Shown here in pieces: positions 1-64,000 of a DNA stretch of 64,000 nucleotides. Source of the stretch: Brachyhypopomus gauderio (Eukaryota; Chordata; Actinopteri; Gymnotiformes; Hypopomidae); assembly GCF_052324685.1 (NCBI RefSeq), contig NW_027506898.1, positions 1,309,501 through 1,373,500 on the forward strand. Direction: 5' to 3'. Position 1 is the first letter of the stretch, and the number at the start of each line of letters is the position of its first letter. Under the pieces are notes generated by a model, which did no database searches, was not told the DNA's origin, and saw only the letters and a list, made by a program, of their open reading frames with translations. A program made the translations under genes and the position numbers.

Positions 1-72
1 AGGTTCCACCGAGAGTCGAACTCGGATTGCTGGATTCAGAATCCAGCGTGCTAACCATTACACCATGGAACC
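1..72 (-). tRNA. tRNA-Gln(CTG), A/C hybrid
   Basis: Carries G26 and U32 of class C but the normal A58 and C5, and has the 5' flank of class D genes. This mixture suggests gene conversion between slots. The anticodon loop is TTCTGAA. All stems pair, so it should fold. Confidence 0.88.
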
Positions 73-299
73 TACGTTAGACACTTCTGAGTCTTGTTTT
101 GCTCGGTTCACAGACCAAGTTAAGCTCAAAGTGATTTGTCATGGGAGAATGCATGTTGCAACAACTACAGACAAGGACTTCCAGCAACAAGATATTTAGT
201 TGAGGTATTCGATTTGGTCAACTGAAAGACACTTTCTGTTTACAGTAGTCTTCAACAATGAAAGCTGGTACAATCCCAGATAAAGAGCATGTAGCAGAA
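73..299 (-). repeat. short (S) spacer, exemplar
   Basis: This 227-bp spacer recurs between most genes with minor variants. It holds no gene. In gene sense it has no run of four T, so no canonical Pol III terminator. It contains one TTAA (in ccaagttaagctc), the site used by the transposon in another copy. The gene 3' end runs directly into TTTCTGC, at best a weak terminator. Confidence 0.85.
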
Positions 300-371
300 A
301 GGTTCCACCGAGAGTCGAACTCGGATTGCTGGATTCAGAGTCCAGAGTGCTAACCATTACACCATGGAACC
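300..371 (-). tRNA. tRNA-Gln(CTG) class A
   Basis: Decodes CAG. Acceptor GGTTCCA pairs with TGGAACC plus discriminator T73. D stem GTGT/GCAC; anticodon stem CTGGA/TCCAG with loop CTCTGAA (anticodon CTG); variable loop CAAT; T stem CCGAG/CTCGG with loop TTCGACT. The A box lies over TGGTGTAATGG and the B box over GAGTTCGACTC. No CCA is encoded. It closely resembles vertebrate tRNA-Gln-CTG as I recall it. This class dominates the right part of the window. Confidence 0.95.
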
Positions 372-598
372 TACATGAGACACTTCTGAGTCTTGTTTTG
401 CTGGGTTCACAGACCAAGTTAAGCTCAAAGTGACTTGTCATGGGAGAATGCATGTTGCAACAACTACAGACAAGGACTTCCAGCAACAAGATAATTAGTT
501 GAGGTATTTGATTTGGTCAACTGAAAGACACTTTCTGTTTACAGTAGTCTTCAACAATGAAAGCTGGTACAATCCCAGATAAAGAGCATGTAGCAGAA

Positions 599-670
599 AG
601 GTTCCACCGAGAGTCGAACTCGGATCACTGGATTCAAAGTCCAGAGTGCTGACCATTACACCATGGAACC
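599..670 (-). tRNA. tRNA-Gln(TTG) class T
   Basis: Decodes CAA (and CAG by wobble). It matches class A except for loop CTTTGAA (anticodon TTG), C in place of U just before A21, and variable loop TGAT. All stems are fully paired. A T4 run lies about 6 bases upstream in the 5' flank (cagcaaaag on the plus strand), which could stop transcripts arriving from the L spacer. Its own 3' end has only TTTC. Confidence 0.95.
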
Positions 671-700
671 CACAGCAAAAGTTGTTTCTAGCAAATGAGT

Positions 701-739
701 TGCTGGATTCAGAGTCCAGAATGCTAACACCATGGAACC
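701..739 (-). pseudogene. half tRNA-Gln(CTG) relic
   Basis: In gene sense this gives GGTTCCATGGTG, then a D arm with its loop mostly lost, then TTAGCATTCTGGACTCTGAA and TCCAGCA. The anticodon arm with CTG is intact; the T arm, B box and 3' acceptor strand are absent. Without a B box it is unlikely to be transcribed by itself. The same relic lies 102-140 bases after the start of every class T gene. Confidence 0.85.
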
Positions 740-764
740 AGCAAATAGGTTTCCAACTTCTCTG

Positions 765-810
765 CCGTTGATTTCAGAGTCTGTTGTGCTTACTACTGCA
801 TCACGCAACC
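765..810 (-). pseudogene. older, diverged half tRNA-Gln relic
   Basis: Gene-sense sequence starts GGTTGCGTGATGCAGTAG, continues TAAGCAC and then ACTCTGAA. It aligns with the 5' half of tRNA-Gln at roughly 28-30 of 39 positions, including GGTT, the 3' D strand (AGCAC) and the anticodon loop with CTG. The anticodon stem no longer pairs well and the T arm is gone. Found at +166 to +211 of each class T gene. Chance similarity is possible but the ordered matches argue against it. Confidence 0.55.
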
Positions 811-834
811 AAAGAAATTAGCTTTTGTGAATAC

Positions 835-860
835 TGTTTTGCTGAACACATAGCAAAACA
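835..860. other. perfect hairpin in L spacer
   Basis: TGTTTTGCT (835-843) is the exact inverse complement of AGCAAAACA (852-860) with an 8-base loop. It recurs in the other L spacers; the copy in 44415-44807 has lost two bases from the loop. The left arm resembles tgttttgctgggttcac in S spacers, so the L spacer may be an aged S spacer. Confidence 0.6.
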
Positions 861-1062
861 TCCTGTCCTGAGACCCTAGCATATTTGGATTTAAATGACT
901 TCACCAATTCTAGGATAATCAGAAAGCTGTTTGCCACAAGAACAAGCATGTAAAAATTCTGAAAACAATTCATGAAATATGCTGGAATTATATAGACCGC
1001 AAGCATGTGATAGAGCTTGCATGGAGAAAAGACCTGCAAGCTGGAATCAACACTAATGAATC

Positions 1063-1066
1063 AAAA
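1063..1066 (-). terminator. T4 Pol III terminator of class B gene
   Basis: In gene sense, T73 of the class B tRNA starts a TTTT run followed by GATT. Most class B copies share it (plus-strand atcaaaagg). It would leave a trailer of three U or fewer. Class A, C, D and T genes have only TTTC here. Confidence 0.75.
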
Positions 1067-1137
1067 GGTTCCACTGAGAGTTGAACTCAGATTGCTGGAT
1101 TCAGAGTCCAGAGTGCTAACCATTACACCATGGAACC
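1066..1137 (-). tRNA. tRNA-Gln(CTG) class B
   Basis: Same as class A except the T arm: stem CTGAG/CTCAG with loop TTCAACT. Relative to class A both strands of one pair have changed (C50:G64 to U50:A64), so pairing is kept, which suggests selection on the folded RNA. It is the only class with T4 runs at both ends. One copy accompanies every class T gene, 465-469 bp away, so the two classes are locked in a 1:1 ratio (44 each). Confidence 0.95.
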
Positions 1138-1138
1138 T

Positions 1139-1142
1139 AAAA
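1139..1142 (-). terminator. T4 run just upstream of class B gene
   Basis: Gene-sense CTTATCTTTTA ends one base before the class B gene. It should stop polymerase reading in from the preceding class A/C/D gene. It recurs at nearly every class B gene but not at 61015 or 63276, which have class A-type 5' flanks. Confidence 0.55.
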
Positions 1143-1365
1143 GATAAGTTCTGATTCTTCTGTTTTGCTGGGTTCACAGACCAAGTTAAGCTCAAAGTGA
1201 CTTGTCTTGAGAGGATGCAAGTTGCAACAACTACAGACAAGGACTTCCAGCAACAAGATATTTAGTTGAGGTATTCGATTTGGTCAACTGAAAGACACTT
1301 TCTGTTTACACTAGTCTTCAACAATGAAAGCTGGTACAATCCCAGATAAAGAGCATGTAGCAGAA

Positions 1366-1437
1366 AGGTTCCACCGAGAGTCGAACTCGGATTGCTGGAT
1401 TCAGAGTCCAGAGTGCTAAACATTACACCATGGAACC
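1366..1437 (-). tRNA. tRNA-Gln(CTG), class A with G19U
   Basis: D loop AATGTTTA in place of AATGGTTA: G19 is U, losing the G19-C56 tertiary pair and altering the A box. Stems are intact. It occupies the slot held by class C elsewhere. Function doubtful. Confidence 0.8.
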
Positions 1438-1664
1438 TACATTAGACATTTCTGAGTCTTGTTTTGCTGGGTTCACAGACCAAGTTAAGCTCAAAGTGAC
1501 TTGTCTTGAGAGGATGCAGGTTGCAACAACTACAGACAAGGACTTCCAGCAACAAGATGTTTAGTTGAGGTATTCGATTTGGTCAACTGAAAGACACTTT
1601 CTGTTTACACTAGTCTTCAACAACGAAAGCTGGTACAACCCCTGATAAAGAGCATGTAGCAGAA

Positions 1665-1736
1665 AGGTTCCACCGAGAGTCGAACTTGGATTGCTGGATT
1701 CAGAGTCCAGCGTGCTAACCATTACACCATGGAACC
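1665..1736 (-). tRNA. tRNA-Gln(CTG) class D
   Basis: G26 and T stem CCAAG/CTCGG, which leaves an A51.C63 mismatch; otherwise a normal cloverleaf with loop CTCTGAA. Confined to the left part of the window, always in the slot just before a class T gene (in plus-strand order). Confidence 0.87.
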
Positions 1737-1963
1737 TACGTTAGACACTTCTGAGTCTTGTTTTGCTGGGTTCACAGACCAAGTTAAGCTCAAAGTGACT
1801 TGTCATGGGAGAATGCATGTTGCAACAACTACAGACAAGGACTTCCAGCAACAAGATAATTAGTTGAGGTATTTGATTTGGTCAACTGAAAGACACTTTC
1901 TGTTTACAGTAGTCTTCAACAATGAAAGCTGGTACAATCCCAGATAAAGAGCATGTAGCAGAA

Positions 1964-2035
1964 AGGTTCCACCGAGAGTCGAACTCGGATCACTGGATTC
2001 AAAGTCCAGAGTGCTGACCATTACACCATGGAACC
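1964..2035 (-). tRNA. tRNA-Gln(TTG) class T
   Basis: As at 599, no changes seen. Confidence 0.94.
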
Positions 2036-2430
2036 CACAGCAAAAGGTGTTTCTAGAAAATGAGTTGCTGGATTCAGAGTCCAGAATGCTAACACCATGG
2101 AACCAGCAAATAGGTTTCCAACTTCTCTGCCGTTGATTTCAGAGTCTGTTGTGCTTACCACTGCATCACGCAACCAAAGAAATTAGCTTTTGTGAATACT
2201 GTTTTGCTGAACACATAGCAAAACATCCTGTCCTGAGACCCTAGCATATTTGGATTTAAATGACTTCACCAATTCTAGGATAATCAGAAAGCTGTTTGCC
2301 ACAAGAACAAGCATGTAAAAATTCTGAAAACAATTCATGAAATATGCTGGAATTATATATACCGCAAGCATGTGATAGAGCTTGCATGGAGAAAAGACCT
2401 GCAAGCTGGAATCAACACTAATGAATCAAA
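2036..2430 (-). repeat. L spacer, subtype L2
   Basis: L2 is marked by ggtgtttctagaaaatgag, taccactgc and tatatacc. Confidence 0.8.
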
Positions 2431-2502
2431 AGGTTCCACTGAGAGTTGAACTCAGATTGCTGGATTCAGAGTCCAGAGTGCTAACCATTACACCATGGAA
2501 CC
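2431..2502 (-). tRNA. tRNA-Gln(CTG) class B
   Basis: As at 1066. Confidence 0.94.
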
Positions 2503-2730
2503 TAAAAGATAAGTTCTGATTCTTCTGTTTTGCTGGGTTCACAGACCAAGTTAAGCTCAAAGTGACTTGTCTTGAGAGGATGCAAGTTGCAACAACTACA
2601 GACAAGGACTTGCAGCAACAAGATATTTAGTTGAGGTATTCGATTTGGTCAACTGAAAGACACTTTCTGTTTACAGTAGTCTTCAACAATGAAAGCTGGT
2701 ACAATCCCAGATAAAGAGCATGTAGCAGAA

Positions 2731-2802
2731 AGGTTCCACCGAGAGTCGAACTCGGATTGCTGGATTCAGAGTCCAGAGTGCAAACCATTACACCATGGAA
2801 CA
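2731..2802 (-). tRNA. tRNA-Gln(CTG) class A21U, G1 lost
   Basis: A21 is U (gtgcaaacc on the plus strand), which disturbs the 8-14-21 core triple. G1 is also U here, breaking the 1:72 pair. Likely impaired. Confidence 0.75.
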
Positions 2803-3028
2803 TACATGAGACACTTCTGAGTCTTGTTTTGCTGGGTTCACAGACCAAGTTAAGCTCAAAGTGACTTGTCATGGGAGAATGCATGTTGCAACAACTACAG
2901 ACAAGGACTTCCAGCAACAAGATAATTAGTTGAGGTATTTGATTTGGTCAACTGAAAGACACTTTCTGTTTACAGTAGTCTTCAACAATGAAAGCTGGTA
3001 CAATCCCAGATAAAGAGCAATAGCAGAA

Positions 3029-3100
3029 AGGTTCCACCGAGAGTCGAACTCGGATCACTGGATTCAAAGTCCAGAGTGCTGACCATTACACCATGGAACC
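3029..3100 (-). tRNA. tRNA-Gln(TTG) class T
   Basis: As at 599. The 3' flank is the one-base-shorter gagcaatagc form. Confidence 0.94.
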
Positions 3101-3495
3101 CACAGCAAAAGTTGTTTCTAGCAAATGAGTTGCTGGATTCAGAGTCCAGAATGCTAACACCATGGAAACAGCAAATAGGTTTCCAACTTCTCTGTCGTTG
3201 ATTTCAGAGTCTGTTGTGCTTACTACTGCATCACGCAACCAAAGAAATTAGCTTTTGTGAATACTGTTTTGCTGAACACATAGCAAAACATCCTGTCCTG
3301 AGACCCTAGCATATTTGGATTTAAATGACTTCACCAATTCTAGGATAATCAGAAAGCTGTTTGCCACAAGAACAAGCATGTAAAAATTCTGAAAACAATT
3401 CATGAAATATGCTGGAATTATATAGACCGCAAGCATGTGATAGAGCTTGCATGGAGAAAAGACCTGCAAGCTGGAATCAACACTAATGAATCAAA
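3101..3495 (-). repeat. L spacer, subtype L1
   Basis: L1 is like L0 but has gaaacagc in the half-tRNA relic, damaging its acceptor strand. Confidence 0.8.
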
Positions 3496-3567
3496 AGGTT
3501 CCACTGAGAGTTGAACTCAGATTGCTGGATTCAGAGTCCAGAGTGCTAACCATTACACCATGGAACC
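3496..3567 (-). tRNA. tRNA-Gln(CTG) class B
   Basis: As at 1066. Confidence 0.94.
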
Positions 3568-3795
3568 TAAAAGATAAGTTCTGATTCTTCTGTTTTGCTG
3601 GGTTCACAGACCAAGTTAAGCTCAAAGTGACTTGTCTTGAGAGGATGCAAGTTGCAACAACTACAGACAAGGACTTCCAGCAACAAGATATTTAGTTGAG
3701 GTATTCGATTTGGTCAACTGAAAGACACTTTCTGTTTACACTAGTCTTCAACAATGAAAGCTGGTACAATCCCAGATAAAGAGCATGTAGCAGAA

Positions 3796-3867
3796 AGGTT
3801 CCACCGAGAGTCGAACTCGGATCGCTGGATTCAAAGTCCAGAGTGCTGACCATTACACCATGGAACC
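3796..3867 (-). tRNA. tRNA-Gln(TTG) class T, CGAT variable loop
   Basis: Variable loop is CGAT in place of TGAT. This gene follows directly after a class B gene because the C and D slots are missing, marking an unequal-crossover joint. Confidence 0.93.
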
Positions 3868-4262
3868 CACAGCAAAAGGTGTTTCTAGAAAATGAGTTGC
3901 TGGATTCAGAGTCCAGAATGCTAACACCATGGAACCAGCAAATAGGTTTCCAACTTCTCTGCCGTTGATTTCAGAGTCTGTTGTGCTTACCACTGCATCA
4001 CGCAACCAAAGAAATTAGCTTTTGTGAATACTGTTTTGCTGAACACATAGCAAAACATCCTGTCCTGAGACCCTAGCATATTTGGATTTAAATGACTTCA
4101 CCAATTCTAGGATAATCAGAAAGCTGTTTGCCACAAGAACAAGCATGTAAAAATTCTGAAAACAATTCATGAAATATGCTGGAATTATATATACCGCAAG
4201 CATGTGATAGAGCTTGGATGGAGAAAAGACCTGCAAGCTGGAATCAACACTAATGAATCAAA
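3868..4262 (-). repeat. L spacer, subtype L2
   Basis: One base (gagcttggatgg) differs in the hairpin arm near its right end. Confidence 0.8.
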
Positions 4263-4334
4263 AGGTTCCACTGAGAGTTGAACTCAGATTGCTGGATTCA
4301 GAGTCCAGAGTGCTAACCATTACACCATGGAACC
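4263..4334 (-). tRNA. tRNA-Gln(CTG) class B
   Basis: As at 1066. Confidence 0.94.
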
Positions 4335-4562
4335 TAAAAGATAAGTTCTGATTCTTCTGTTTTGCTGGGTTCACAGACCAAGTTAAGCTCAAAGTGACTT
4401 GTCTTGAGAGGATGCAAGTTGCAACAACTACAGACAAGGACTTGCAGCAACAAGATATTTAGTTGAGGTATTCGATTTGGTCAACTGAAAGACACTTTCT
4501 GTTTACAGTAGTCTTCAACAATGAAAGCTGGTACAATCCCAGATAAAGAGCATGTAGCAGAA

Positions 4563-4634
4563 AGGTTCCACCGAGAGTCGAACTCGGATTGCTGGATTCA
4601 GAGTCCAGAGTGCAAACCATTACACCATGGAACC
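4563..4634 (-). tRNA. tRNA-Gln(CTG) class A21U
   Basis: Class A with U at position 21 as the only change. Stems fully paired; tertiary core weakened, so activity is uncertain. Confidence 0.83.
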
Positions 4635-4860
4635 TACATGAGACACTTCTGATTCTTGTTTTGCTGGGTTCACAGACCAAGTTAAGCTCAAAGTGACTTG
4701 TCATGGGAGAATGCATGTTGCAACAACTACAGACAAGGACTTCCAGCAACAAGATAATTAGTTGAGGTATTTGATTTGGTCAACTGAAAGACACTTTCTG
4801 TTTACAGTAGTCTTCAACAATGAAAGCTGGTACAATCCCAGATAAAGAGCAATAGCAGAA

Positions 4861-4932
4861 AGGTTCCACCGAGAGTCGAACTCGGATCACTGGATTCAAA
4901 GTCCAGAGTGCTGACCATTACACCATGGAACC
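4861..4932 (-). tRNA. tRNA-Gln(TTG) class T
   Basis: As at 599. Confidence 0.94.
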
Positions 4933-5327
4933 CACAGCAAAAGTTGTTTCTAGCAAATGAGTTGCTGGATTCAGAGTCCAGAATGCTAACACCATGGAAA
5001 CAGCAAATAGGTTTCCAACTTCTCTGTCGTTGATTTCAGAGTCTGTTGTGCTTACTACTGCATCACGCAACCAAAGAAATTAGCTTTTGTGAATACTGTT
5101 TTGCTGAACACATAGCAAAACATCCTGTCCTGAGACCCTAGCATATTTGGATTTAAATGACTTCACCAATTCTAGGATAATCAGAAAGCTGTTTGCCACA
5201 AGAACAAGCATGTAAAAATTCTGAAAACAATTCATGAAATATGCTGGAATTATATAGACCGCAAGCATGTGATAGAGCTTGCATGGAGAAAAGACCTGCA
5301 AGCTGGAATCAACACTAATGAATCAAA
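4933..5327 (-). repeat. L spacer, subtype L1
   Basis: Intact copy. Confidence 0.8.
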
Positions 5328-5399
5328 AGGTTCCACTGAGAGTTGAACTCAGATTGCTGGATTCAGAGTCCAGAGTGCTAACCATTACACCATGGAACC
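5328..5399 (-). tRNA. tRNA-Gln(CTG) class B
   Basis: As at 1066. Confidence 0.94.
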
Positions 5400-5627
5400 T
5401 AAAAGATAAGTTCTGATTCTTCTGTTTTGCTGGGTTCACAGACCAAGTTAAGCTCAAAGTGACTTGTCTTGAGAGGATGCAAGTTGCAACAACTACAGAC
5501 AAGGACTTCCAGCAACAAGATATTTAGTTGAGGTATTCGATTTGGTCAACTGAAAGACACTTTCTGTTTACACTAGTCTTCAACAATGAAAGCTGGTACA
5601 ATCCCAGATAAAGAGCATGTAGCAGAA

Positions 5628-5699
5628 AGGTTCCACCGAGAGCCGAACTCGGATTGCTGGATTCAGAATCCAGCGTGCTAACCATTACACCATGAAACC
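5628..5699 (-). tRNA. tRNA-Gln(CTG)-like, class C, probably impaired
   Basis: Differs from class A by G26, U32 (loop TTCTGAA), C5 to U (a U.G wobble with G68) and A58 to G (T loop TTCGGCT). A58 is near-universal in tRNA: it forms the T-loop reverse-Hoogsteen pair, is methylated, and its DNA base is a core B-box position. The change should weaken both transcription and folding. Ten copies occur, all in the left part and in the same slot, so the defect spread with the higher-order repeat. Confidence 0.75.
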
Positions 5700-5926
5700 T
5701 ACATTAGACATTTCTGAGTCTTGTTTTGCTGGGTTCACAGACCAAGTTAAGCTCAAAGTGACTTGTCTTGAGAGGATGCAGGTTGCAACAACTACAGACA
5801 AGGACTTCCAGCAACAAGATGTTTAGTTGAGGTATTCGATTTGGTCAACTGAAAGACACTTTCTGTTTACACTAGTCTTCAACAACGAAAGCTGGTACAA
5901 CCCCTGATAAAGAGCATGTAGCAGAA

Positions 5927-5998
5927 AGGTTCCACCGAGAGTCGAACTTGGATTGCTGGATTCAGAGTCCAGCGTGCTAACCATTACACCATGGAACC
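5927..5998 (-). tRNA. tRNA-Gln(CTG) class D
   Basis: As at 1665. Confidence 0.87.
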
Positions 5999-6225
5999 TA
6001 CGTTAGACACTTCTGAGTCTTGTTTTGCTGGGTTCACAGACCAAGTTAAGCTCAAAGTGACTTGTCATGGGAGAATGCATGTTGCAACAACTACAGACAA
6101 GGACTTCCAGCAACAAGATAATTAGTTGAGGTATTTGATTTGGTCAACTGAAAGACACTTTCTGTTTACAGTAGTCTTCAACAATGAAAGCTGGTACAAT
6201 CCCAGATAAAGAGCATGTAGCAGAA

Positions 6226-6297
6226 AGATTCCACCGAGAGTCGAACTCGGATCACTGGATTCAAAGTCCAGAGTGCTGACCATTACACCATGGAACC
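6226..6297 (-). tRNA. tRNA-Gln(TTG) class T, C71U
   Basis: C71 is U (agattcc on the plus strand), giving a G2.U71 wobble in the acceptor stem. Shared with 8656, 11086 and 17310. Confidence 0.92.
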
Positions 6298-6692
6298 CAC
6301 AGCAAAAGGTGTTTCTAGAAAATGAGTTGCTGGATTCAGAGTCCAGAATGCTAACACCATGGAACCAGCAAATAGGTTTCCAACTTCTCTGCCGTTGATT
6401 TCAGAGTCTGTTGTGCTTACCACTGCATCACGCAACCAAAGAAATTAGCTTTTGTGAATACTGTTTTGCTGAACACATAGCAAAACATCCTGTCCTGAGA
6501 CCCTAGCATATTTGGATTTAAATGACTTCACCAATTCTAGGATAATCAGAAAGCTGTTTGCCACAAGAACAAGCATGTAAAAATTCTGAAAACAATTCAT
6601 GAAATATGCTGGAATTATATATACCGCAAGCATGTGATAGAGCTTGCATGGAGAAAAGACCTGCAAGCTGGAATCAACACTAATGAATCAAA
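6298..6692 (-). repeat. L spacer, subtype L2
   Basis: Intact copy. Confidence 0.8.
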
Positions 6693-6764
6693 AGGTTCCA
6701 CTGAGAGTTGAACTCAGATTGCTGGATTCAGAGTCCAGAGTGCTAACCATTACACCATGGAACC
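6693..6764 (-). tRNA. tRNA-Gln(CTG) class B
   Basis: As at 1066. Confidence 0.94.
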
Positions 6765-6992
6765 TAAAAGATAAGTTCTGATTCTTCTGTTTTGCTGGGT
6801 TCACAGACCAAGTTAAGCTCAAAGTGACTTGTCTTGAGAGGATGCAAGTTGCAACAACTACAGACAAGGACTTGCAGCAACAAGATATTTAGTTGAGGTA
6901 TTCGATTTGGTCAACTGAAAGACACTTTCTGTTTACAGTAGTCTTCAACAATGAAAGCTGGTACAATCCCAGATAAAGAGCATGTAGCAGAA

Positions 6993-7064
6993 AGGTTCCA
7001 CCGAGAGTCGAACTCGGATTGCTGGATTCAGAGTCCAGAGTGCAAACCATTACACCATGGAACC
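6993..7064 (-). tRNA. tRNA-Gln(CTG) class A21U
   Basis: As at 4563. Confidence 0.83.
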
Positions 7065-7290
7065 TACATGAGACACTTCTGAGTCTTGTTTTGCTGGGTT
7101 CACAGACCAAGTTAAGCTCAAAGTGACTTGTCATGGGAGAATGCATGTTGCAACAACTACAGACAAGGACTTCCAGCAACAAGATAATTAGTTGAGGTAT
7201 TTGATTTGGTCAACTGAAAGACACTTTCTGTTTACAGTAGTCTTCAACAATGAAAGCTGGTACAATCCCAGATAAAGAGCAATAGCAGAA

Positions 7291-7362
7291 AGGTTCCACC
7301 GAGAGTCGAACTCGGATCACTGGATTCAAAGTCCAGAGTGCTGACCATTACACCATGGAACC
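7291..7362 (-). tRNA. tRNA-Gln(TTG) class T
   Basis: As at 599. Confidence 0.94.
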
Positions 7363-28631: not shown

Positions 28632-28678
28632 TACATTAGACATTTCTGAGTCTTGTTTTGCTGGGTTCACAGACCAAG

Positions 28679-28682
28679 TTAA
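28679..28682. repeat. TTAA target-site duplication, left
   Basis: The uninterrupted spacer reads ccaagttaagctc. Here ccaag-ttaa is followed by the transposon end. Confidence 0.95.
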
Positions 28683-28695
28683 CACTAGAAGCGCC
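28683..28695 (+). repeat. piggyBac left terminal inverted repeat
   Basis: CACTAGAAGCGCC, the exact inverse complement of 31616-31628. Confidence 0.95.
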
Positions 28696-28793
28696 AAAGC
28701 TCCGGTCATTTGACCGCTGTGACGTCTACTAGAAGCGCCGCCTCTGGTCGACCTAATTATACCTAGAAGCGCCGAGCACCGGTCACTTGACCG
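28685..28793 (+). promoter_or_regulatory. left subterminal motifs, likely transposase-binding
   Basis: CTAGAAGCGCC occurs at 28685-28695, 28729-28739 and 28763-28773. Palindromes CGGTCA-TT-TGACCG (28703-28716), GGTCGACC (28746-28753) and CGGTCA-CT-TGACCG (28780-28793) lie between or after them. Repeated subterminal motifs are typical binding sites for piggyBac transposases; the assignment here is inferred from position and repetition. Confidence 0.7.
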
Positions 28794-29580
28794 CAGCAGC
28801 ACAAAAAATAATAATATCTTTGCACTGGATCCAATTTCAGAACCCTCCTTTCATGACTTTTCCCAGAATTGTCCTTTTAATAAACTAGTATTTTTACATT
28901 GTTAAAAGAAACCCTGCACATGCTAGTTTCAATCGATTTCGCTCGTATCTCTGTAATATTGTCGTCGTCGCCTACACTTCAAGACTGTGATTCTCTTTTC
29001 TGCCAGCGGGTGTCGCAAAGATTCGTATGTCATTTAATATTTAGTATAACTAAATAAAGATCAATAGTTTTCAAAACTAAATTATTCAAAGTTCAAACTG
29101 ATTATTGTGTAAAGACAAAACGGAATTCGTCCGTTGAACGAAAGTGAAAGTGTTTCACTTTCCAAAGTCTTAAAATATATACTTTATTTATTAATATTAT
29201 TTAATATATACTATATATAAGTTTACATCAATGGTTTTCAAACCGTGAGAGCGTCTTGCTTTGCCTAATAAATGCTTTAGTAGTTTGCAGGAATTCTGCG
29301 AATGGTAATTAGCCTACTTATCAAGTCAATATCTCAAATAAATGATCTCTCGGGTATAATCCCTCTTCGCCAGGGCTAGCTGTTAGATACATACATTATG
29401 TATGGCTGCTTTTGACACACTGGCATTACAAAAGAATTAAGCAGAATGCAAGTTACGTATGTAAATGCATACCTTTGCGAGCGAAACTGAGATGATGGCA
29501 TGGGCGGTGCTGTTATGAACACTTTATTCACAATAGCATTCATGAGGCAACGTGAGCTATAAATTCGTCGGGACGCGGCT
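28794..29580. other. transposon interior, no gene recognised
   Basis: AT-rich, notably 29174-29220. No coding frame resembling a transposase catalytic domain is seen on either strand. A small inverted repeat AAAGTG-TTT-CACTTT occurs near 29145. It probably represents non-coding internal or captured DNA. Confidence 0.5.
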
Positions 29581-29911
29581 ACACAGTTTGAGTGAAAACT
29601 CTGCTTGGGCGATCGAACAGCAACACAGTTTGCTTGAAAGCTCGGTTTTGGCGTTTGAACAGCAACATAGTTTGCGTGACTCCTCGGTTTGGGCGTTTGA
29701 ACAGCAACACAGTTTGCTTGAAAGCTCGGTTTGGGCGATCGAACAGCAACACAGTTTGCTTGAAAGCTCGGTTTTGGCGTTTGAACAGCAACATAGTTTG
29801 CGTGACTCCTCGGTTTGGGCGTTTGAACAGCAACACAGTTTGCTTGAAAGCTCGGTTTGGGTGATCGAACAGCAACACAGTTTGCTTGAAAGCTCGGTTT
29901 GGGTGATCGAA
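29581..29911 (+). repeat. 42-bp minisatellite, about 7.8 copies
   Basis: A partial unit (29581-29610) is followed by seven 42-bp units starting at 29611, 29653, 29695, 29737, 29779, 29821 and 29863, then the first bases of another. Typical core: cagcaacacagtttgcttg. Units alternate in subtype with a 126-bp super-period. Because 42 is divisible by 3, two frames per strand stay open (14-residue repeats such as AFEQQHSLLESSVW), giving spurious open frames of 90-235 codons. The frame of the Cys-rich remnant has a stop in each unit, so the repeat is not part of that protein. Confidence 0.93.
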
Positions 29912-30099
29912 TTTTACCTGAAGCTCCTTGCCCGCCCTCAAAAAGAAAACAATGCCAAGTCGGCAGATGTTCAGGGAACAAAACGTATGACATCTGCCAG
30001 ACATGTAAGCGACTGGTCTGTGGCAAATGTGCAAAGACTGCACCTAAGCTGTGTTTTGAATGTGAAGCTGACACACAAATCAAAACAAAGGGAACTTAA
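29899..30099 (+). pseudogene. piggyBac transposase C-terminal Cys-rich remnant
   Basis: About 60 codons ending at a TAA. The peptide contains SKRKQCQVGRCSG, then YDICQTCKRLVCGKC and KLCFEC, matching the pattern of the C-terminal zinc-binding Cys-rich domain of piggyBac transposases, which binds the terminal repeats. The DDE catalytic region and N-terminus are absent; the minisatellite lies where they should be. I read it as a truncated fossil. A start at TTG 29899 is not credible. Domain assignment is from pattern recognition only. Confidence 0.72.
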
Positions 30100-30529
30100 T
30101 TTGAGGTGGTGAACGAAACTTATGCAATATACGCTAAAGAGAGACGGGATGCATCCGTTGTTGGCCTGTAGCTGTGTTCTACAACCTCCAAAACCTGGCT
30201 GTAATTAATAAATATTGTTCAAACAGTGCATGAACATTAACCACAGCGGTGGAGGTTTATTCTCAAGTTCACAATTCACTACATAAATGTAACCTAATTT
30301 GAGGTGGGGAACGAAACTTATTCAATATACGCTAAAGAGAGACGGGATGCACCCGTTGTTGGCCTGTAGCTGTGTTCTACAACCTCCAAAACCTGGCTGT
30401 AATTAATAAATATTGTTCAAACAGTGCATGAACATTAACCACAGCGGCGGAGGTTTATTCTCAAGTTCACAATTCACTACATAAATGGAACTTAATTTGA
30501 GGTGGGGAACGAAACTTATGCAATATACG
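30091..30529 (+). repeat. 198-bp tandem duplication, 2.2 copies
   Basis: Copies start at 30091 and 30289, with a 43-bp third start at 30487; the phase is set by ggaacttaatttgaggtgg. The repeat begins over the stop codon of the transposase remnant, so it duplicates the element's 3' untranslated region. The two full copies differ at few positions. Each contains attaataaatattg, a possible poly(A)-signal context (aataaa). Confidence 0.92.
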
Positions 30530-31165
30530 ATACATGTAAATCACCGAATGGTGATAACGCTTGGTGATAACACGGTCGTTAGGACGTGGGATCACACATC
30601 GGCTATTCACCGATCAAACACCTCATTTGAAACGGCAACACAATACGGCAAGATAAAAAAGTGAACATTAGAGAGGACAGAGGCAACTATATTCGTGAAG
30701 CCATCCGTATCATTTTAATAATTTTGCGTTTTGTTACGCAAAGGTACATAGCCTACCTTTTATAATGATATTTTTGTAATTATTTTGCCTATTTATGCTT
30801 TTTGTTCTTTGTCTAACACAAAACATTATAGACATTTATTTGTAGATTTGTTATGTTCACCATAGCCTACAATTCACTAACATACACAACTTTTAGACAT
30901 TAAAACTTGAAATGGCGTAACATTGAACAAAGTATACAAACAAACTTGCTTTAGCTCGGTCTACGGGCTTCACTTTGCTACTCTGAGTATCGAACAAGCT
31001 TTTTGTGGATGTGGGGGTGGAAGGCTGCAGCGCAGTCTGTTTCATTAGCAAGACAAAAGACGTGAACGCTTCACAGTGGGGGTGCGGGCCAGTGGGTTAG
31101 TGGTGTGGCGAACGTACATGATAATATAGTGACATATATGCCAACAGAATAACACACAGACAAAT
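30530..31165. other. transposon interior, no gene recognised
   Basis: No coding frame or RNA gene recognised. A duplicated tggtgataac (30549-30558 and 30562-30571) and a small hairpin TCACC-GAAT-GGTGA (30541-30554) are present; 30720-30950 is AT-rich. Confidence 0.5.
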
Positions 31166-31207
31166 AAGCAAACTATTACACTAACCAAGCAAACTATTAC
31201 ACTAACC
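31166..31207 (+). repeat. 21-bp direct tandem pair
   Basis: Two exact copies of a 21-bp unit beginning aagcaaactattacac. Confidence 0.9.
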
Positions 31208-31488
31208 AAGAAACAAAACTGAAACTATATTTTGCATTTACGTTTTCGCACAAACCAGGAAATGCAATATGAAACTAAACAAAACTGACAATGGGAAAGC
31301 TACTGAGAACGAGGTCACAAGGCACTGATTCTAAAAGGTTTAGTCACATTAATTTGTTAACATATTGACGTTACGTGCAAATGTCACCATTACGAATATT
31401 TTGTTTGGGCGGCTCATTCTTCCTTTTGTGCAAAACGCCATCTAGCGTTAATTATGTGTCAGTACCAGCTCCCCTGTGTAAAGACTCA
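31208..31488. other. transposon interior, nothing recognised
   Basis: AT-rich sequence without a supported feature. Confidence 0.5.
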
Positions 31489-31592
31489 GCGGTCTTTTGA
31501 CCGCCCGAGGCGCGCTTTAAGTAGGTGAAAACAACACGGCGCTAGTAGGAGGTGGTGAAATCGGTCAGATGACCGGCCCTCCGCGCTTCTAG
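31489..31592 (-). promoter_or_regulatory. right subterminal motifs, likely transposase-binding
   Basis: Palindromes GCGGTC-TTTT-GACCGC (31489-31504) and CGGTCA-GA-TGACCG (31562-31575) mirror those of the left end. A one-base variant of the CTAGAAGCGCC motif (inverted, CGCGCTTCTAG) is at 31582-31592; weaker relatives lie around 31510 and 31538. Confidence 0.7.
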
Positions 31593-31615
31593 GTATAAGT
31601 ATGTAAATGAGGCGC

Positions 31616-31628
31616 GGCGCTTCTAGTG
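31616..31628 (-). repeat. piggyBac right terminal inverted repeat
   Basis: GGCGCTTCTAGTG, exact inverse complement of the left end. Confidence 0.95.
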
Positions 31629-31632
31629 TTAA
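31629..31632. repeat. TTAA target-site duplication, right
   Basis: Followed by gctcaaagtgac, the continuation of the interrupted S spacer. Confidence 0.95.
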
Positions 31633-56923: not shown

Positions 56924-56995
56924 AGGTTCCACCGAGAGTCGAACTCGGATCACTGGATTCAAAGTCCAGAGTGCTGACCATTACACCATGGAACC
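56924..56995 (-). tRNA. tRNA-Gln(TTG) class T
   Basis: As at 599. Confidence 0.94.
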
Positions 56996-57390
56996 CACAG
57001 CAAAAGTTGTTTCTAGCAAATGAGTTGCTGGATTCAGAGTTCAGAATGCTAACCCCATGGAACCAACAAATAGGTTTCCAACTTCTCTGCCGTTGATTTC
57101 AGAGTCTGTTGTGCTTACTACTGCATCACGCAACCAAAGAAATTAGCTTTTGTGAATACTGTTTTGCTGAACACATAGCAAAACATCCTGTCCTGAGACC
57201 CTAGCATATTTGGATTTAAATGACTTCACCAATTCTAGGATAATCAGAAAGCTGTTTGCCACAGGAACAAGCATGTAAAAATTCTGAAAACAATTCATGA
57301 AATATGCTGGAATTATATAGACCGCAAGCATGTGATAGAGCTTGCATGGAGAAAAGACCTGCAAGCTGGAATCAACACTAATGAATCAAA
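56996..57390 (-). repeat. L spacer, subtype L3
   Basis: Private change taaccccatgg in the relic. Confidence 0.8.
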
Positions 57391-57462
57391 AGGTTCCACT
57401 GAGAGTTGAACTCAGATTGCTGGATTCAGAGTCCAGAGTGCTAACCATTACACCATGGAACC
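57391..57462 (-). tRNA. tRNA-Gln(CTG) class B
   Basis: As at 1066. Confidence 0.94.
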
Positions 57463-57690
57463 TAAAAGATAAGTTCTGATTCTTCTGTTTTGCTGGGTTC
57501 ACAGACCAAGTTAAGCTCAAAGTGACTTGTCTTGAGAGGATGCAAGTTGCAACAACTACAGACAAGGACTTCCAGCAACAAGATATTTAGTTGAGGTATT
57601 CGATTTGGTCAACTGAAAGACACTTTCTGTTTACAGTAGTCTTCAACAATGAAAGCTGGTACAATCCCAGTTAAAGAGCATGTAGCAGAA

Positions 57691-57762
57691 AGGTTCCACC
57701 GAGAGTCGAACTCGGATTGCTGGATTCAGAGTCCAGAGTGCTAACCATTACACCATGGAACC
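57691..57762 (-). tRNA. tRNA-Gln(CTG) class A
   Basis: As at 300. Confidence 0.94.
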
Positions 57763-57989
57763 TACATGAGACACTTCTGAGTCTTGTTTTGCTGGGTTCA
57801 CAGACCAAGTTAAGCTCAAAGTGACTTGTCATGGGAGAATGCATGTTGCAACAACTACAGACAAGGACTTCCAGCAACAAGATAATTAGTTGAGGTATTT
57901 GATTTGGTCAACTGAAAGACACTTTCTGTTTACACTAGTCTTCAACAACGAAAGCTGGTACAACCCCAGATAAAGAGCATGTAGCAGAA

Positions 57990-58061
57990 AGGTTCCACCG
58001 AGAGTTGAACTCGGATTGCTGGATTCAGAGTCCAGAGTGCTAACCATTACACCATGGAACC
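57990..58061 (-). tRNA. tRNA-Gln(CTG) class A, G57A
   Basis: As at 39224. Confidence 0.93.
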
Positions 58062-58288
58062 TACATTAGACATTTCTGAGTCTTGTTTTGCTGGGTTCAC
58101 AGACCAAGTTAAGCTCAAAGTGACTTGTCATGGGAGAATGCAGGTTGCAACAACTACAGACAAGGACTTCCAGCAACAAGATAATTAGTAGAGGTATTTG
58201 ATTTGGTCAACTGAAAGACACTTTCTGTTTACAGTAGTCTTCAACAATGAAAGCTGGTACAATCCCAGATAAAGAGCATGTAGCAGAA

Positions 58289-58360
58289 AGGTTCCACCGA
58301 GAGTCGAACTCGGATTGCTGGATTCAGAGTCCAGAGTGCTAACCATTACACCATGGAACC
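58289..58360 (-). tRNA. tRNA-Gln(CTG) class A
   Basis: As at 300. Confidence 0.94.
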
Positions 58361-58587
58361 TACATGAGACACTTCTGAGTCTTGTTTTGCTGGGTTCACA
58401 GACCAAGTTAAGCTCAAAGTGACTTGTCATGGGAGAATGCATGTTGCAACAACTACAGACAAGGACTTCCAGCAACAAGATAATTAGTAGAGGTATTTGA
58501 TTTGGTCAACTGAAAGACACTTTCTGTTTACAGTAGTCTTCAACAATGAAAGCTGGTACAATCCCAGATAAAGAGCATGTAGCAGAA

Positions 58588-58659
58588 AGGTTCCACCGAG
58601 AGTCGAACTCGGATTGCTGGATTCAGAGTCCTGAGTGCTAACCATTACACCATGGAACC
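58588..58659 (-). tRNA. tRNA-Gln(CTG) class A, U28A
   Basis: As at 35600. Confidence 0.86.
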
Positions 58660-58886
58660 TACATGAGACACTTCTGAGTCTTGTTTTGCTGGGTTCACAG
58701 ACCAAGTTAAGCTCAAAGTGACTTGTCATGGGAGAATGCAGGTTGCAACAACTACAGACAAGGACTTCCAGCAACAAGATAATTAGTAGAGGTATTTGAT
58801 TTGGTCAACTGAAAGACACTTTCTGTTTACAGTAGTCTTCAACAATGAAAGCTGGTACAATCCCAGATAAAGAGCATGTAGCAGAA

Positions 58887-58958
58887 AGGTTCCACCGAGA
58901 GTCGAACTCGGATTGCTGGATTCAGAGTCCAGAGTGCTAACCATTACACCATGGAACC
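58887..58958 (-). tRNA. tRNA-Gln(CTG) class A
   Basis: As at 300. Confidence 0.94.
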
Positions 58959-59185
58959 TACATGAGAGACTTCTGAGTCTTGTTTTGCTGGGTTCACAGA
59001 CCAAGTTAAGCTCAAAGTGACTTGTCATGGGAGAATGCAGGTTGCAACAACTACAGACAAGGACTTCCAGCAACAAGATAATTAGTAGAGGTATTTGATT
59101 TGGTCAACTGAAAGACACTTTCTGTTTACAGTAGTCTTCAACAATGAAAGCTGGTACAATCCCAGATAAAGAGCATGTAGCAGAA

Positions 59186-59257
59186 AGGTTCCACTGAGAG
59201 TCGAACTCGGATCACTGGATTCAAAGTCCAGAGTGCTGACCATTACACCATGGAACC
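59186..59257 (-). tRNA. tRNA-Gln(TTG) class T, C50.A64
   Basis: T stem CCGAG/CTCAG: one strand in class B form, leaving a C.A mismatch. A gene-conversion chimera. Confidence 0.88.
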
Positions 59258-59652
59258 CACAGCAAAAGTTGTTTCTAGCAAATGAGTTGCTGGATTCAGA
59301 GTTCAGAATGCTAACACCATGGAACCAACAAATAGGTTTCCAACTTCTCTGCCGTTGATTTCAGAGTCTGTTGTGCTTACTACTGCATCACGCAACCAAA
59401 GAAATTAGCTTTTGTGAATACTGTTTTGCTGAACACATAGCAAAACATCCTGTCCTGAGACCCTAGCATATTTGGATTTAAATGACTTCACCAATTCTAG
59501 GATAATCAGAAAGCTGTTTGCCACAAGAACAAGCATGTAAAAATTCTGAAAACAATTCATGAAATATGCTGGAATTATATAGACCGCAAGCATGTGATAG
59601 AGCTTGCATGGAGAAAAGACCTGCAAGCTGGAATCAACACTAATGAATCAAA
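59258..59652 (-). repeat. L spacer, subtype L3
   Basis: Intact copy. Confidence 0.8.
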
Positions 59653-59724
59653 AGGTTTCACTGAGAGTTGAACTCAGATTGCTGGATTCAGAGTCCAGAG
59701 TGCTAACCATTACACCATGGAACC
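59653..59724 (-). tRNA. tRNA-Gln(CTG) class B, G68A
   Basis: As at 35004. Confidence 0.87.
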
Positions 59725-59949
59725 TAAAAGATAAGTTCTGATTCTTCTGTTTTGCTGGGTTCACAGACCAAGTTAAGCTCAAAGTGACTTGTCTTGAGAG
59801 GATGCAAGTTGCAACTACAGACAAGGACTTCCAGCAACAAGATATTTAGTTGAGGTATTCGATTTGGTCAACTGAAAGACACTTTTTGTTTACAGTAGTC
59901 TTCAACAATGAAAGCTGGTACAATCCCAGATAAAGAGCATGTAGCAGAA

Positions 59950-60021
59950 AGGTTCCACCGAGAGTCGAACTCGGATTGCTGGATTCAGAGTCCAGAGTGC
60001 TAACCATTACACCATGGAACC
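59950..60021 (-). tRNA. tRNA-Gln(CTG) class A
   Basis: As at 300. Confidence 0.94.
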
Positions 60022-60248
60022 TACATGAGACACTTCTGAGTCTTGTTTTGCTGGGTTCACAGACCAAGTTAAGCTCAAAGTGACTTGTCATGGGAGAATG
60101 CAGGTTGCAACAACTACAGACAAGGACTTCCAGCAACAAGATAATTAGTAGAGGTATTTGATTTGGTCAACTGAAAGACACTTTCTGTTTACAGTAGTCT
60201 TCAACAATGAAAGCTGGTACAATCCCAGATAAAGAGCATGTAGCAGAA

Positions 60249-60320
60249 AGGTTCCACCGAGAGTCGAACTCGGATTGCTGGATTCAGAGTCCAGAGTGCT
60301 AACCATTACACCATGGAACC
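60249..60320 (-). tRNA. tRNA-Gln(CTG) class A
   Basis: As at 300. Confidence 0.94.
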
Positions 60321-60547
60321 TACATGAGACACTTCTGAGTCTTGTTTTGCTGGGTTCACAGACCAAGTTAAGCTCAAAGTGACTTGTCATGGGAGAATGC
60401 AGGTTGCAACAACTACAGACAAGGACTTCCAGCAACAAGATAATTAGTAGAGGTATTTGATTTGGTCAACTGAAAGACACTTTCTGTTTACAGTAGTCTT
60501 CAACAATGAAAGCTGGTACAATCCCAGATAAAGAGCATGTAGCAGAA

Positions 60548-60619
60548 AGGTTCCACCGAGAGTCGAACTCGGATCACTGGATTCAAAGTCCAGAGTGCTG
60601 ACCATTACACCATGGAACC
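60548..60619 (-). tRNA. tRNA-Gln(TTG) class T
   Basis: As at 599. Confidence 0.94.
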
Positions 60620-61014
60620 CACAGCAAAAGTTGTTTCTAGCAAATGAGTTGCTGGATTCAGAGTTCAGAATGCTAACACCATGGAACCAACAAATAGGTT
60701 TCCAACTTCTCTGCCGTTGATTTCAGAGTCTGTTGTGCTTACTACTGCATCACGCAACCAAAGAAATTAGCTTTTGTGAATACTGTTTTGCTGAACACAT
60801 AGCAAAACATCCTGTCCTGAGACCCTAGCATATTTGGATTTAAATGACTTCACCAATTCTAGGATAATCAGAAAGCTGTTTGCCACAAGAACAAGCATGT
60901 AAAAATTCTGAAAACAATTCATGAAATATGCTGGAATTATATAGACCGCAAGCATGTGATAGAGCTTGCATGGAGAAAAGACCTGCAAGCTGGAATCAAC
61001 ACTAATGAATCAAA
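60620..61014 (-). repeat. L spacer, subtype L3
   Basis: Intact copy. Confidence 0.8.
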
Positions 61015-61086
61015 AGGTTCCACTGAGAGTTGAACTCAGATTGCTGGATTCAGAGTCCAGAGTGCTAACCATTACACCATGGAACC
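61015..61086 (-). tRNA. tRNA-Gln(CTG) class B with class A 5' flank
   Basis: Gene body is class B with its 3' T4 run, but the 5' flank is tacatgagac, so the upstream T4 run is missing. The crossover lies inside or next to the tRNA. Confidence 0.93.
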
Positions 61087-61313
61087 TACATGAGACACTT
61101 CTGAGTCTTGTTTTGCTGGGTTCACAGACCAAGTTAAGCTCAAAGTGACTTGTCATGGGAGAATGCATGTTGCAACAACTACAGACAAGGACTTCCAGCA
61201 ACAAGATAATTAGTTGAGGTATTTGATTTGGTCAACTGAAAGACACTTTCTGTTTACACTAGTCTTCAACAACGAAAGCTGGTACAACCCCAGATAAAGA
61301 GCATGTAGCAGAA

Positions 61314-61385
61314 AGGTTCCACCGAGAGTTGAACTCGGATTGCTGGATTCAGAGTCCAGAGTGCTAACCATTACACCATGGAACC
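61314..61385 (-). tRNA. tRNA-Gln(CTG) class A, G57A
   Basis: As at 39224. Confidence 0.93.
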
Positions 61386-61612
61386 TACTTTAGACATTTC
61401 TGAGTCTTGTTTTGCTGGGTTCACAGACCAAGTTAAGCTCAAAGTGACTTGTCATGGGAGAATGCAGGTTGCAACAACTACAGACAAGGACTTCCAGCAA
61501 CAAGATAATTAGTAGAGGTATTTGATTTGGTCAACTGAAAGACACTTTCTGTTTACAGTAGTCTTCAACAATGAAAGCTGGTACAATCCCAGATAAAGAG
61601 CATGTAGCAGAA

Positions 61613-61684
61613 AGGTTCCACCGAGAGTCGAACTCGGATTGCTGGATTCAGAGTCCAGAGTGCTAACCATTACACCATGGAACC
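61613..61684 (-). tRNA. tRNA-Gln(CTG) class A
   Basis: As at 300. Confidence 0.94.
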
Positions 61685-61911
61685 TACATGAGACACTTCT
61701 GAGTCTTGTTTTGCTGGGTTCACAGACCAAGTTAAGCTCAAAGTGACTTGTCATGGGAGAATGCATGTTGCAACAACTACAGACAAGGACTTCCAGCAAC
61801 AAGATAATTAGTTGAGGTATTTGATTTGGTCAACTGAAAGACACTTTCTGTTTACACTAGTCTTCAACAACGAAAGCTGGTACAACCCCAGATAAAGAGC
61901 ATGTAGCAGAA

Positions 61912-61983
61912 AGGTTCCACCGAGAGTCGAACTCGGATTGCTGGATTCAGAGTCCAGAGTGCTAACCATTACACCATGGAACC
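61912..61983 (-). tRNA. tRNA-Gln(CTG) class A
   Basis: As at 300. Confidence 0.94.
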
Positions 61984-62210
61984 TACATTAGACATTTCTG
62001 AGTCTTGTTTTGCTGGGTTCACAGACCAAGTTAAGCTCAAAGTGACTTGTCATGGGAGAATGCAGGTTGCAACAACTACAGACAAGGACTTCCAGCAACA
62101 AGATAATTAGTAGAGGTATTTGATTTGGTCAACTGAAAGACACTTTCTGTTTACAGTAGTCTTCAACAATGAAAGCTGGTACAATCCCAGATAAAGAGCA
62201 TGTAGCAGAA

Positions 62211-62282
62211 AGGTTCCACCGAGAGTCGAACTCGGATTGCTGGATTCAGAGTCCTGAGTGCTAACCATTACACCATGGAACC
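62211..62282 (-). tRNA. tRNA-Gln(CTG) class A, U28A
   Basis: As at 35600. Confidence 0.86.
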
Positions 62283-62509
62283 TACATGAGACACTTCTGA
62301 GTCTTGTTTTGCTGGGTTCACAGACCAAGTTAAGCTCGAAGTGCCTTGTCATGGGAGAATGCAGGTTGCAACAACTACAGACAAGGACTTCCAGCAACAA
62401 GATAATTAGTAGAGGTATTTGATTTGGTCAACTGAAAGACACTTTCTGTTTACAGTAGTCTTCAACAATGAAAGCTGGTACAATCCCAGATAAAGAGCAT
62501 GTAGCAGAA

Positions 62510-62581
62510 AGGTTCCACCGAGAGTCGAACTCAGATTGCTGGATTCAGAGTCCAGAGTGCTAACCATTACACCATGGAACC
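62510..62581 (-). tRNA. tRNA-Gln(CTG) class A, U50.G64
   Basis: As at 34238. Confidence 0.92.
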
Positions 62582-62808
62582 TACATGAGACACTTCTGAG
62601 TCTTGTTTTGCTGGGTTCACAGACCAAGTTAAGCTCAAAGTGACTTGTCATGGGAGAATGCAGGTTGCAACAACTACAGACAAGGACTTCCAGCAACAAG
62701 ATAATTAGTAGAGGTATTTGATTTGGTCAACTGAAAGACACTTTCTGTTTACAGTAGTCTTCAACAATGAAAGCTGGTACAATCCCAGATAAAGAGCATG
62801 TAGCAGAA

Positions 62809-62880
62809 AGGTTCCACCGAGAGTCGAACTCGGATCACTGGATTCAAAGTCCAGAGTGCTGACCATTACACCATGGAACC
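62809..62880 (-). tRNA. tRNA-Gln(TTG) class T
   Basis: As at 599. Confidence 0.94.
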
Positions 62881-63275
62881 CACAGCAAAAGTTGTTTCTA
62901 GCAAATGAGTTGCTGGATTCAGAGTTCAGAATGCTAACACCATGGAACCAACAAATAGGTTTCCAACTTCTCTGCCGTTGATTTCAGAGTCTGTTGTGCT
63001 TACTACTGCATCACGCAACCAAAGAAATTAGCTTTTGTGAATACTGTTTTGCTGAACACATAGCAAAACATCCTGTCCTGAGACCCTAGCATATTTGGAT
63101 TTAAATGACTTCACCAATTCTAGGATAATCAGAAAGCTGTTTGCCACAAGAACAAGCATGTAAAAATTCTGAAAACAATTCATGAAATATGCTGGAATTA
63201 TATAGACCGCAAGCATGTGATAGAGCTTGCATGGAGAAAAGACCTGCAAGCTGGAATCAACACTAATGAATCAAA
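62881..63275 (-). repeat. L spacer, subtype L3
   Basis: Intact copy. Confidence 0.8.
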
Positions 63276-63347
63276 AGGTTCCACTGAGAGTTGAACTCGG
63301 ATTGCTGGATTCAGAGTCCAGAGTGCTAACCATTACACCATGGAACC
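63276..63347 (-). tRNA. tRNA-Gln(CTG) B/A chimera
   Basis: T stem CCGAG/CTCAG with a C50.A64 mismatch, the class B 3' side and T4 run, but class A body and 5' flank. The crossover lies within the T arm. Confidence 0.88.
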
Positions 63348-63574
63348 TACATTAGACATTTCTGAGTCTTGTTTTGCTGGGTTCACAGACCAAGTTAAGC
63401 TCAAAGTGACTTGTCATGGGAGAATGCAGGTTGCAACAACTACAGACAAGGACTTCCAGCAACAAGATAATTAGTAGAGGTATTTGATTTGGTCAACTGA
63501 AAGACACTTTCTGTTTACAGTAGTCTTCAACAATGAAAGCTGGTACAATCCCAGATAAAGAGCATGTAGCAGAA

Positions 63575-63646
63575 AGGTTCCACCGAGAGTCGAACTCGGA
63601 TTGCTGGATTCAGAGTCCAGAGTGCTAACCATTACACCATGGAACC
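63575..63646 (-). tRNA. tRNA-Gln(CTG) class A
   Basis: As at 300. Confidence 0.94.
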
Positions 63647-63873
63647 TACATGAGACACTTCTGAGTCTTGTTTTGCTGGGTTCACAGACCAAGTTAAGCT
63701 CAAAGTGACTTGTCATGGGAGAATGCATGTTGCAACAACTACAGACAAGGACTTCCAGCAACAAGATAATTAGTTGAGGTATTTGATTTGGTCAACTGAA
63801 AGACACTTTCTGTTTACACTAGTCTTCAACAACGAAAGCTGGTACAACCCCAGATAAAGAGCATGTAGCAGAA

Positions 63874-63945
63874 AGGTTCCACCGAGAGTCGAACTCGGAT
63901 TGCTGGATTCAGAGTCCAGAGTGCTAACCATTACACCATGGAACC
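63874..63945 (-). tRNA. tRNA-Gln(CTG) class A
   Basis: As at 300. The last gene; the array continues past the window edge. Confidence 0.94.
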
Positions 63946-64000
63946 TACATTAGACATTTCTGAGTCTTGTTTTGCTGGGTTCACAGACCAAGTTAAGCTC

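Follow-up and report, generated by a model that had tools for sequence, protein, structure and literature searches.

How does a vertebrate come to carry about 180 transfer RNA (tRNA) genes for one amino acid on a single strand of 64 kb, and is such a series a working set of genes or a satellite that happens to be built of tRNA sequence? The question is raised by a stretch of 64,000 nucleotides (nt) from the gymnotiform fish Brachyhypopomus gauderio, here called the window, which is C54:1309501-1373500, where C54 is contig NW_027506898.1 of a genome of 796.5 Mb in 840 contigs; other contigs are referred to in the same way. We think it rather probable that the window belongs to a very large tandem array of glutamine tRNA (tRNA-Gln) genes of the zebrafish kind, which has spread by exchange, is transcribed as set out below and serves to make bulk tRNA-Gln for oogenesis and the early embryo.

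The tRNA-Gln genes of the window

ARAGORN called 180 tRNA genes in the window (179 if the gene that touches base 1 is left out). All of them lie on the minus strand; 136 are Gln-CTG genes and 44 Gln-TTG. The search of Rfam with cmscan also gave 180 matches above the gathering scores, and the best 150 of the 180 were all to RF00005 (tRNA). No non-Gln isotype was called in the 64 kb. The original prediction, made from the sequence by eye, had been of about 180 glutamine-only genes on one strand with 44 TTG and 136 CTG copies, and the calls bear it out. All 19 stem pairs that were tested are intact in 146 of the 180 genes, and one pair is broken in the other 34. Chance or misfolded repeats as the source of the calls can be ruled out from the gene calls, the cmscan matches and the stem pairs taken together, and chance is in any case not an issue as the array is a tandem repeat of 299-nt and 467-nt units.

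The genes fall into three classes. Class T has the TTG anticodon (44 genes), class A has CTG with no run of four T residues (T4) behind the gene (92), and class B has CTG followed by T4 (44). Read as transcribed, the window has the order T, then zero to seven A genes, then B, and every one of the 44 T genes is preceded by a B gene and each of the 44 B genes followed by a T gene. In the 43 complete T-to-B units the number of A genes is one in 19, two in 15, three in 1, four in 3, five in 2, seven in 2 and none in 1. The B-to-T spacer, measured from one gene call to the next, is 393 nt long in 42 of its 44 copies and by eye includes two degenerate tRNA-Gln-like pieces; elsewhere spacers measure about 225 nt. 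We considered whether class A genes are simple crossover products of B and T: the gene bodies fit, but by eye the flanks do not, as class A has its own 5' flank.

The coupling of each TTG gene to a class B gene, which had been foreseen, is thus complete in the window. The further claim that this locks the two copy numbers is too strong, as the number of A genes between T and B varies, and in the longer stretch of C54 described next only 151 of 160 TTG genes are behind a T4-bearing gene, with 3 behind a CTG gene that lacks T4 and 6 behind another T gene.

Extent of the array and its assembly

From C54:1279501 to the end of the contig there are 587 tRNA calls, again all on the minus strand: 404 Gln-CTG, 160 Gln-TTG, 17 CTA, 4 CCG, 1 CTT and 1 CTC. 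Counted from the first Gln call, at C54:1,295,684, to 1,500,095, where the contig breaks off within a gene, this is a stretch of 204 kb (the C54 stretch). The statement that the array is for glutamine only holds for the window, but in the C54 stretch the anticodon of 23 of the 587 calls is not one for Gln, although the body is that of tRNA-Gln. Contig C69 starts inside the array: its first bases complete the gene at which C54 breaks off, giving one intact gene in the 299-nt register, and array matches follow from base 1 of C69 up to at least 137,153. There were no tRNA calls in the first 10 kb of each of C52, C53, C55 and C56.

A 31-base tRNA-Gln pattern has 949 matches in the whole genome, 948 of them on the minus strand and the sole forward-strand match on C12. 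The C54 stretch accounts for 487. If the other 461, for most of which the places are not listed, lie on C69, and if the pattern misses an equal share of genes there, we estimate that the whole array has about 1,100 genes. It thus has several hundred tRNA-Gln genes and perhaps over a thousand.

It is most improbable that copy number has been distorted by repeats that were collapsed or falsely expanded in assembly. C54 ends and C69 begins within the array, as might be expected of such an artefact, but the units are not uniform, there being 77 distinct gene sequences among the 587, the longest exact repeat in the 204 kb is 6,686 bases, and the transposon described below is present at one place only of the stretch. 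The breaks within the array would themselves point to under-assembly rather than over-assembly. There are also higher-order periods of 1,066, 1,365 and about 2,431 nt, and these, with the mosaic genes, suggest that copies would spread by unequal exchange and conversion.

Terminators and possible transcription units

T4 within 100 nt is absent from all 44 T genes and all 92 A genes, that is from 136 of the 180 genes of the window, and from 427 of the 587 genes of the C54 stretch. Looking at spacers, T4 is found in none of 43 T-A and none of 47 A-A spacers (one further A-A pair, which is split by the transposon and does hold T4, was set aside). Of spacers leading into a B gene 41 of 44 have T4, about 5 nt before the gene, and those leading out of B have it in 44 of 44, which is so by definition, as class B was defined by TTTT directly behind the gene. 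For comparison, eight sampled pieces from other arrays and clusters of the genome have T4 within 100 nt of 33 of 34 genes, these 34 being copies of about eight gene types.

If the array is transcribed, RNA polymerase III (Pol III) would initiate at each internal promoter. Transcripts from T and A genes would then either stop weakly at TTTCTG or continue through any further A genes as far as the T4 in front of B, and read-through precursors would be cut into tRNAs afterwards. A narrower view is that T and A genes all end at the non-canonical TTTCTG, each giving a single-tRNA transcript with no multi-tRNA transcripts. We see about an even chance of this, and it is compatible with the reading that we favour, which allows both routes. 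Non-canonical termination by Pol III is known in human cells. In support, T4 within 100 bp is reported for 93% of human tRNA genes (PMC12675287), so that some manage without it, and in yeast RNA structure beside weak T-tracts is reported to improve termination (PMC9278858). Against it is the near-constant T4 in the genes sampled from other arrays of the same genome.

Functional array or silent satellite

The mark of the teleost arrays, a long head-to-tail series on the same strand with most copies intact, is found here over 180 genes in the window and 587 in 204 kb. By analogy with the repetitive tRNA genes of zebrafish, the genes would supply tRNA-Gln in bulk at a time when demand is high, for which oogenesis and early embryonic life are the likeliest candidates.

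Several observations weigh against this. With regard to the terminators, the small number of gene types in the comparison set has been mentioned; in addition, it is not unlikely for a single spacer to be free of T4, as 355 of 2000 dinucleotide shuffles of one spacer also are, and the A and T spacers seem all to go back to one ancestral spacer. With regard to variation, genes have a higher density of segregating sites than spacers in each of three alignments (0.319 against 0.206, 0.208 against 0.163 and 0.153 against 0.091), and non-CpG singletons are 2.4-fold commoner in genes (20 of 204 sites, against 34 of 842 in spacers; p 0.002). Single copies thus look little constrained, judging from these alignments, and the array could be silent heterochromatin.

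Removing the gene alleles that classes have in common, a filter that was used on genes but not on spacers, brings the singleton excess down to 1.58-fold (13 of 204 gene sites, p 0.18). Raised mutation in the genes, which we had considered as a sign of transcription, was therefore set aside. Common non-CpG variants (at least 5%) are rarer in genes, at 4 of 204 sites against 46 of 842 in spacers (0.36-fold, p 0.042), and the contrast between singletons and common variants with shared gene alleles dropped has an odds ratio of 4.4 (p 0.015). All of these p-values are optimistic because tandem copies do not give independent sites, which is a further point on the unfavourable side. The evidence is weak and mixed, and suggests at most weakly that there is upkeep at the level of the whole array.

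The same data bear on the proposal that this is a neutral satellite, a tRNA-derived macrosatellite that unequal exchange has amplified and that is for the most part silent, with tRNA-Gln genes elsewhere doing the work. The dense variable sites and singletons in genes (the latter not significant after the filter), the 34 window genes with a broken pair and the spread of anticodon mutants to several copies all fit it, and a tandem Ser/Tyr cluster in Arabidopsis is reported to be silent in most tissues (PMC12308677). We nonetheless consider it unlikely, as common gene variants are depleted and most copies are intact. Nor do the other genes that it needs stand out: the 31-base pattern has its one forward-strand match on C12 and over half of its matches in the C54 stretch, with no listed place for most of the other 461, and the ordinary vertebrate form of tRNA-Gln was matched only twice in the genome, one match (C69:182060) being probably in the array, with the reservation that pattern searches of this kind would miss divergent tRNA-Gln genes. 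The more probable reading for us is a functional array, in which weak constraint on single copies would let anticodon mutants arise and be copied, including an allele that would read UAG.

The CTA allele and other anticodon shifts

The allele in question is carried by 17 class B genes that have anticodon CTA (for UAG, amber) in place of CTG. They start between C54:1385528 and C54:1481248, all outside the window, and an exact pattern search of the whole genome for the CTA gene gave 17 matches, again all on C54 and outside the window. Apart from the anticodon 13 of the 17 are the same as the commonest class B gene with all tested pairs intact, and the other 4 have a further change in the T-stem with one pair broken. 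Among variants within class B genes none but CTA reaches 5%; it is present in 17 of 151 units. The consensus spacer haplotype accompanies 16 of the 17 copies, and is also the commonest among CTG copies. From their sequences the 17 probably have one origin and were copied with the array; copying by unequal exchange suffices to account for the spread, and selection is not required.

Six more anticodon-shifted copies, also outside the window, are at C54:1408347, 1418540, 1419607, 1422506, 1423873 and 1426305. Four are CCG genes with broken stems, and the one CTT and one CTC gene have all tested pairs.

Change of CUG to CUA in tRNA-Gln gives an amber suppressor, as in supE of E. coli. The same one-base change on an otherwise unaltered tRNA-Gln body is seen in the 13 copies mentioned above, and the difference from the supE type is that here there are seventeen natural genomic copies in an array, with the suppressor role predicted from the anticodon. 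A suppressor has reportedly been made from a human tRNA-Gln-CTG gene in cultured cells (PMC12675287). Engineered human Gln suppressors are reported to have a clear preference in human cells for UAA over UAG (PMC6379413), which argues against strong activity of the CUA form. Predicted suppressor tRNAs are not new in fish, since a predicted Sup-TTA tRNA that clusters with Lys-TTT is reported in zebrafish (PMC11417395), and we found no vertebrate reported in the open-access literature to have an amplified CTA tRNA-Gln.

One could go further and propose that the units are operon-like for Pol III, with the TTG gene first, then CTG genes and one terminator, so setting the ratio of TTG to CTG output, and that the amplified CTA allele provides a dosed UAG-reading tRNA-Gln for the egg and embryo, a natural multi-copy amber suppressor of a vertebrate. 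We regard this as a long shot.

Other features of the window and its surroundings

The coordinates of the array, of one example each of the gene classes and of the long spacer, and of an inserted element are given in Table 1.

Table 1. Features of the window, with positions counted from its first base
Feature	Position	Strand	Remarks
Tandem tRNA-Gln array, 180 genes (136 CTG, 44 TTG)	1..64000	minus	part of C54:1295684-1500095
Class A tRNA-Gln-CTG gene (example)	299..372	minus	no T4 within 100 nt
Class T tRNA-Gln-TTG gene (example)	598..671	minus	no T4 within 100 nt
393-nt B-to-T spacer (example)	672..1064	minus	tRNA-Gln-like pieces at about 697-745 and 763-814, by eye
Class B tRNA-Gln-CTG gene (example)	1065..1138	minus	T-stem CTGAG/CTCAG; TTTT directly behind
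Transposable element, piggyBac-like	28683..31628		ends CACTAGAAGCGCC / GGCGCTTCTAGTG, by eye
Cys-rich open stretch, like a transposase C-terminus by eye	29980..30099	+	inside the element

The original prediction needs one correction, in that the array is interrupted by the transposable element. By eye the element lies at a spacer TTAA, with copies of TTAA at 28679-28682 and 31629-31632. When searched as 28683-31630 it is 100% identical to a copy at C7:500762, and dozens of near-identical copies of one of its ends are present elsewhere in the genome (40 of 626 candidates were scored), while the inverted end matches at about 80%. Sequence identity of this order indicates that it was probably inserted recently. 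With piggyBac it shares the TTAA target duplication and terminal inverted repeats. It differs in that no transposase domain was found over the cut-off in the one 59-amino-acid stretch that was scanned against Pfam; no family was above its cut-off over the Cys-rich stretch, and neither of two weak matches below their cut-offs was a transposase.

At its low edge the array ends in a B spacer with, by eye, an insert like a long interspersed nuclear element, and beyond this there are two reading frames with matches to hAT-type transposases (PF05699, and DUF4371 just over the cut-off). A 22-mer from the spacer had no exact match in collections of viral contigs and genome contigs.

There are other tRNA arrays in this genome. 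The opposite end of C54 (1-101600; L028, L035, L036) has a tRNA-Ile-AAT array with a 769-nt unit, in which the first 10 kb has 13 Ile genes and 1 Ala gene and samples at 30 and 100 kb have two Ile genes each; samples of C54 at 300 kb and 1.2 Mb have no tRNA genes. In C7:24156421-24287056 two samples have Thr-TGT genes only, with a 1,219-nt unit, and one sample of C71:47835-514296 has Lys, Leu and Glu genes with a 971-nt unit. Samples of C4 and C2 gave two Thr and two Cys genes. Single-isotype arrays thus seem not to be rare in this genome, as the Ile samples (the one Ala gene apart) and the Thr samples each show one isotype. Globin exons are present on both strands and interleaved at C6:18392084-18471734, and also on both strands at C3; such interleaving is as in the globin clusters of teleosts. 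The best PDB matches of one globin exon (L040) are hemoglobin beta chains, by their entry codes probably those of fish, which would fit a teleost host.

Relation to known tRNA arrays

Homogeneous tRNA clusters, and teleost clusters of fifty and more tRNA genes, are described in a paper of 2010 (PMC2888827). With those descriptions and the Ile and Thr samples above, the view that an array for a single amino acid is unusual can be upheld only in part; our search of the open-access literature brought up no array for glutamine alone that is as large. The array shares with those of zebrafish and other teleosts the many clustered tRNA genes, the nearly always parallel orientation of adjacent pairs and the presence of several arrays per genome. 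It differs in that adjacent pairs in zebrafish are reported to be mostly for different amino acids (PMC2888827), whereas here the window has a single isotype. The zebrafish isodecoders found in eggs are reported to be encoded in repetitive regions and the later ones in scattered genes (PMC11417395).

Two other systems invite comparison. The human variable-number tandem repeat at 1q23.3 also consists of tandem tRNA genes in units about 98% alike, but its unit is reported as 7.3 kb with five tRNA genes for four amino acids on both strands, in 9 to 43 units (PMC4041453), while the present array has one amino acid, one strand and the short units given above. The Ser-Tyr-Tyr cluster of Arabidopsis is likewise made up of tandem tRNA genes of few isotypes, possibly for a special protein demand, and differs in being a plant cluster for Ser and Tyr and in its reported silence (PMC12308677).

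The array adds a single-isotype example to the known teleost tRNA arrays, from which it stands apart in the lack of terminators at most of its genes and in its amplified amber allele. It provides a natural case in which to study what keeps tandem tRNA arrays working during concerted evolution, whether several tRNAs are transcribed together by vertebrate Pol III when terminators are missing, and how far a vertebrate with many genomic copies of a CUA tRNA tolerates suppression of stop codons.

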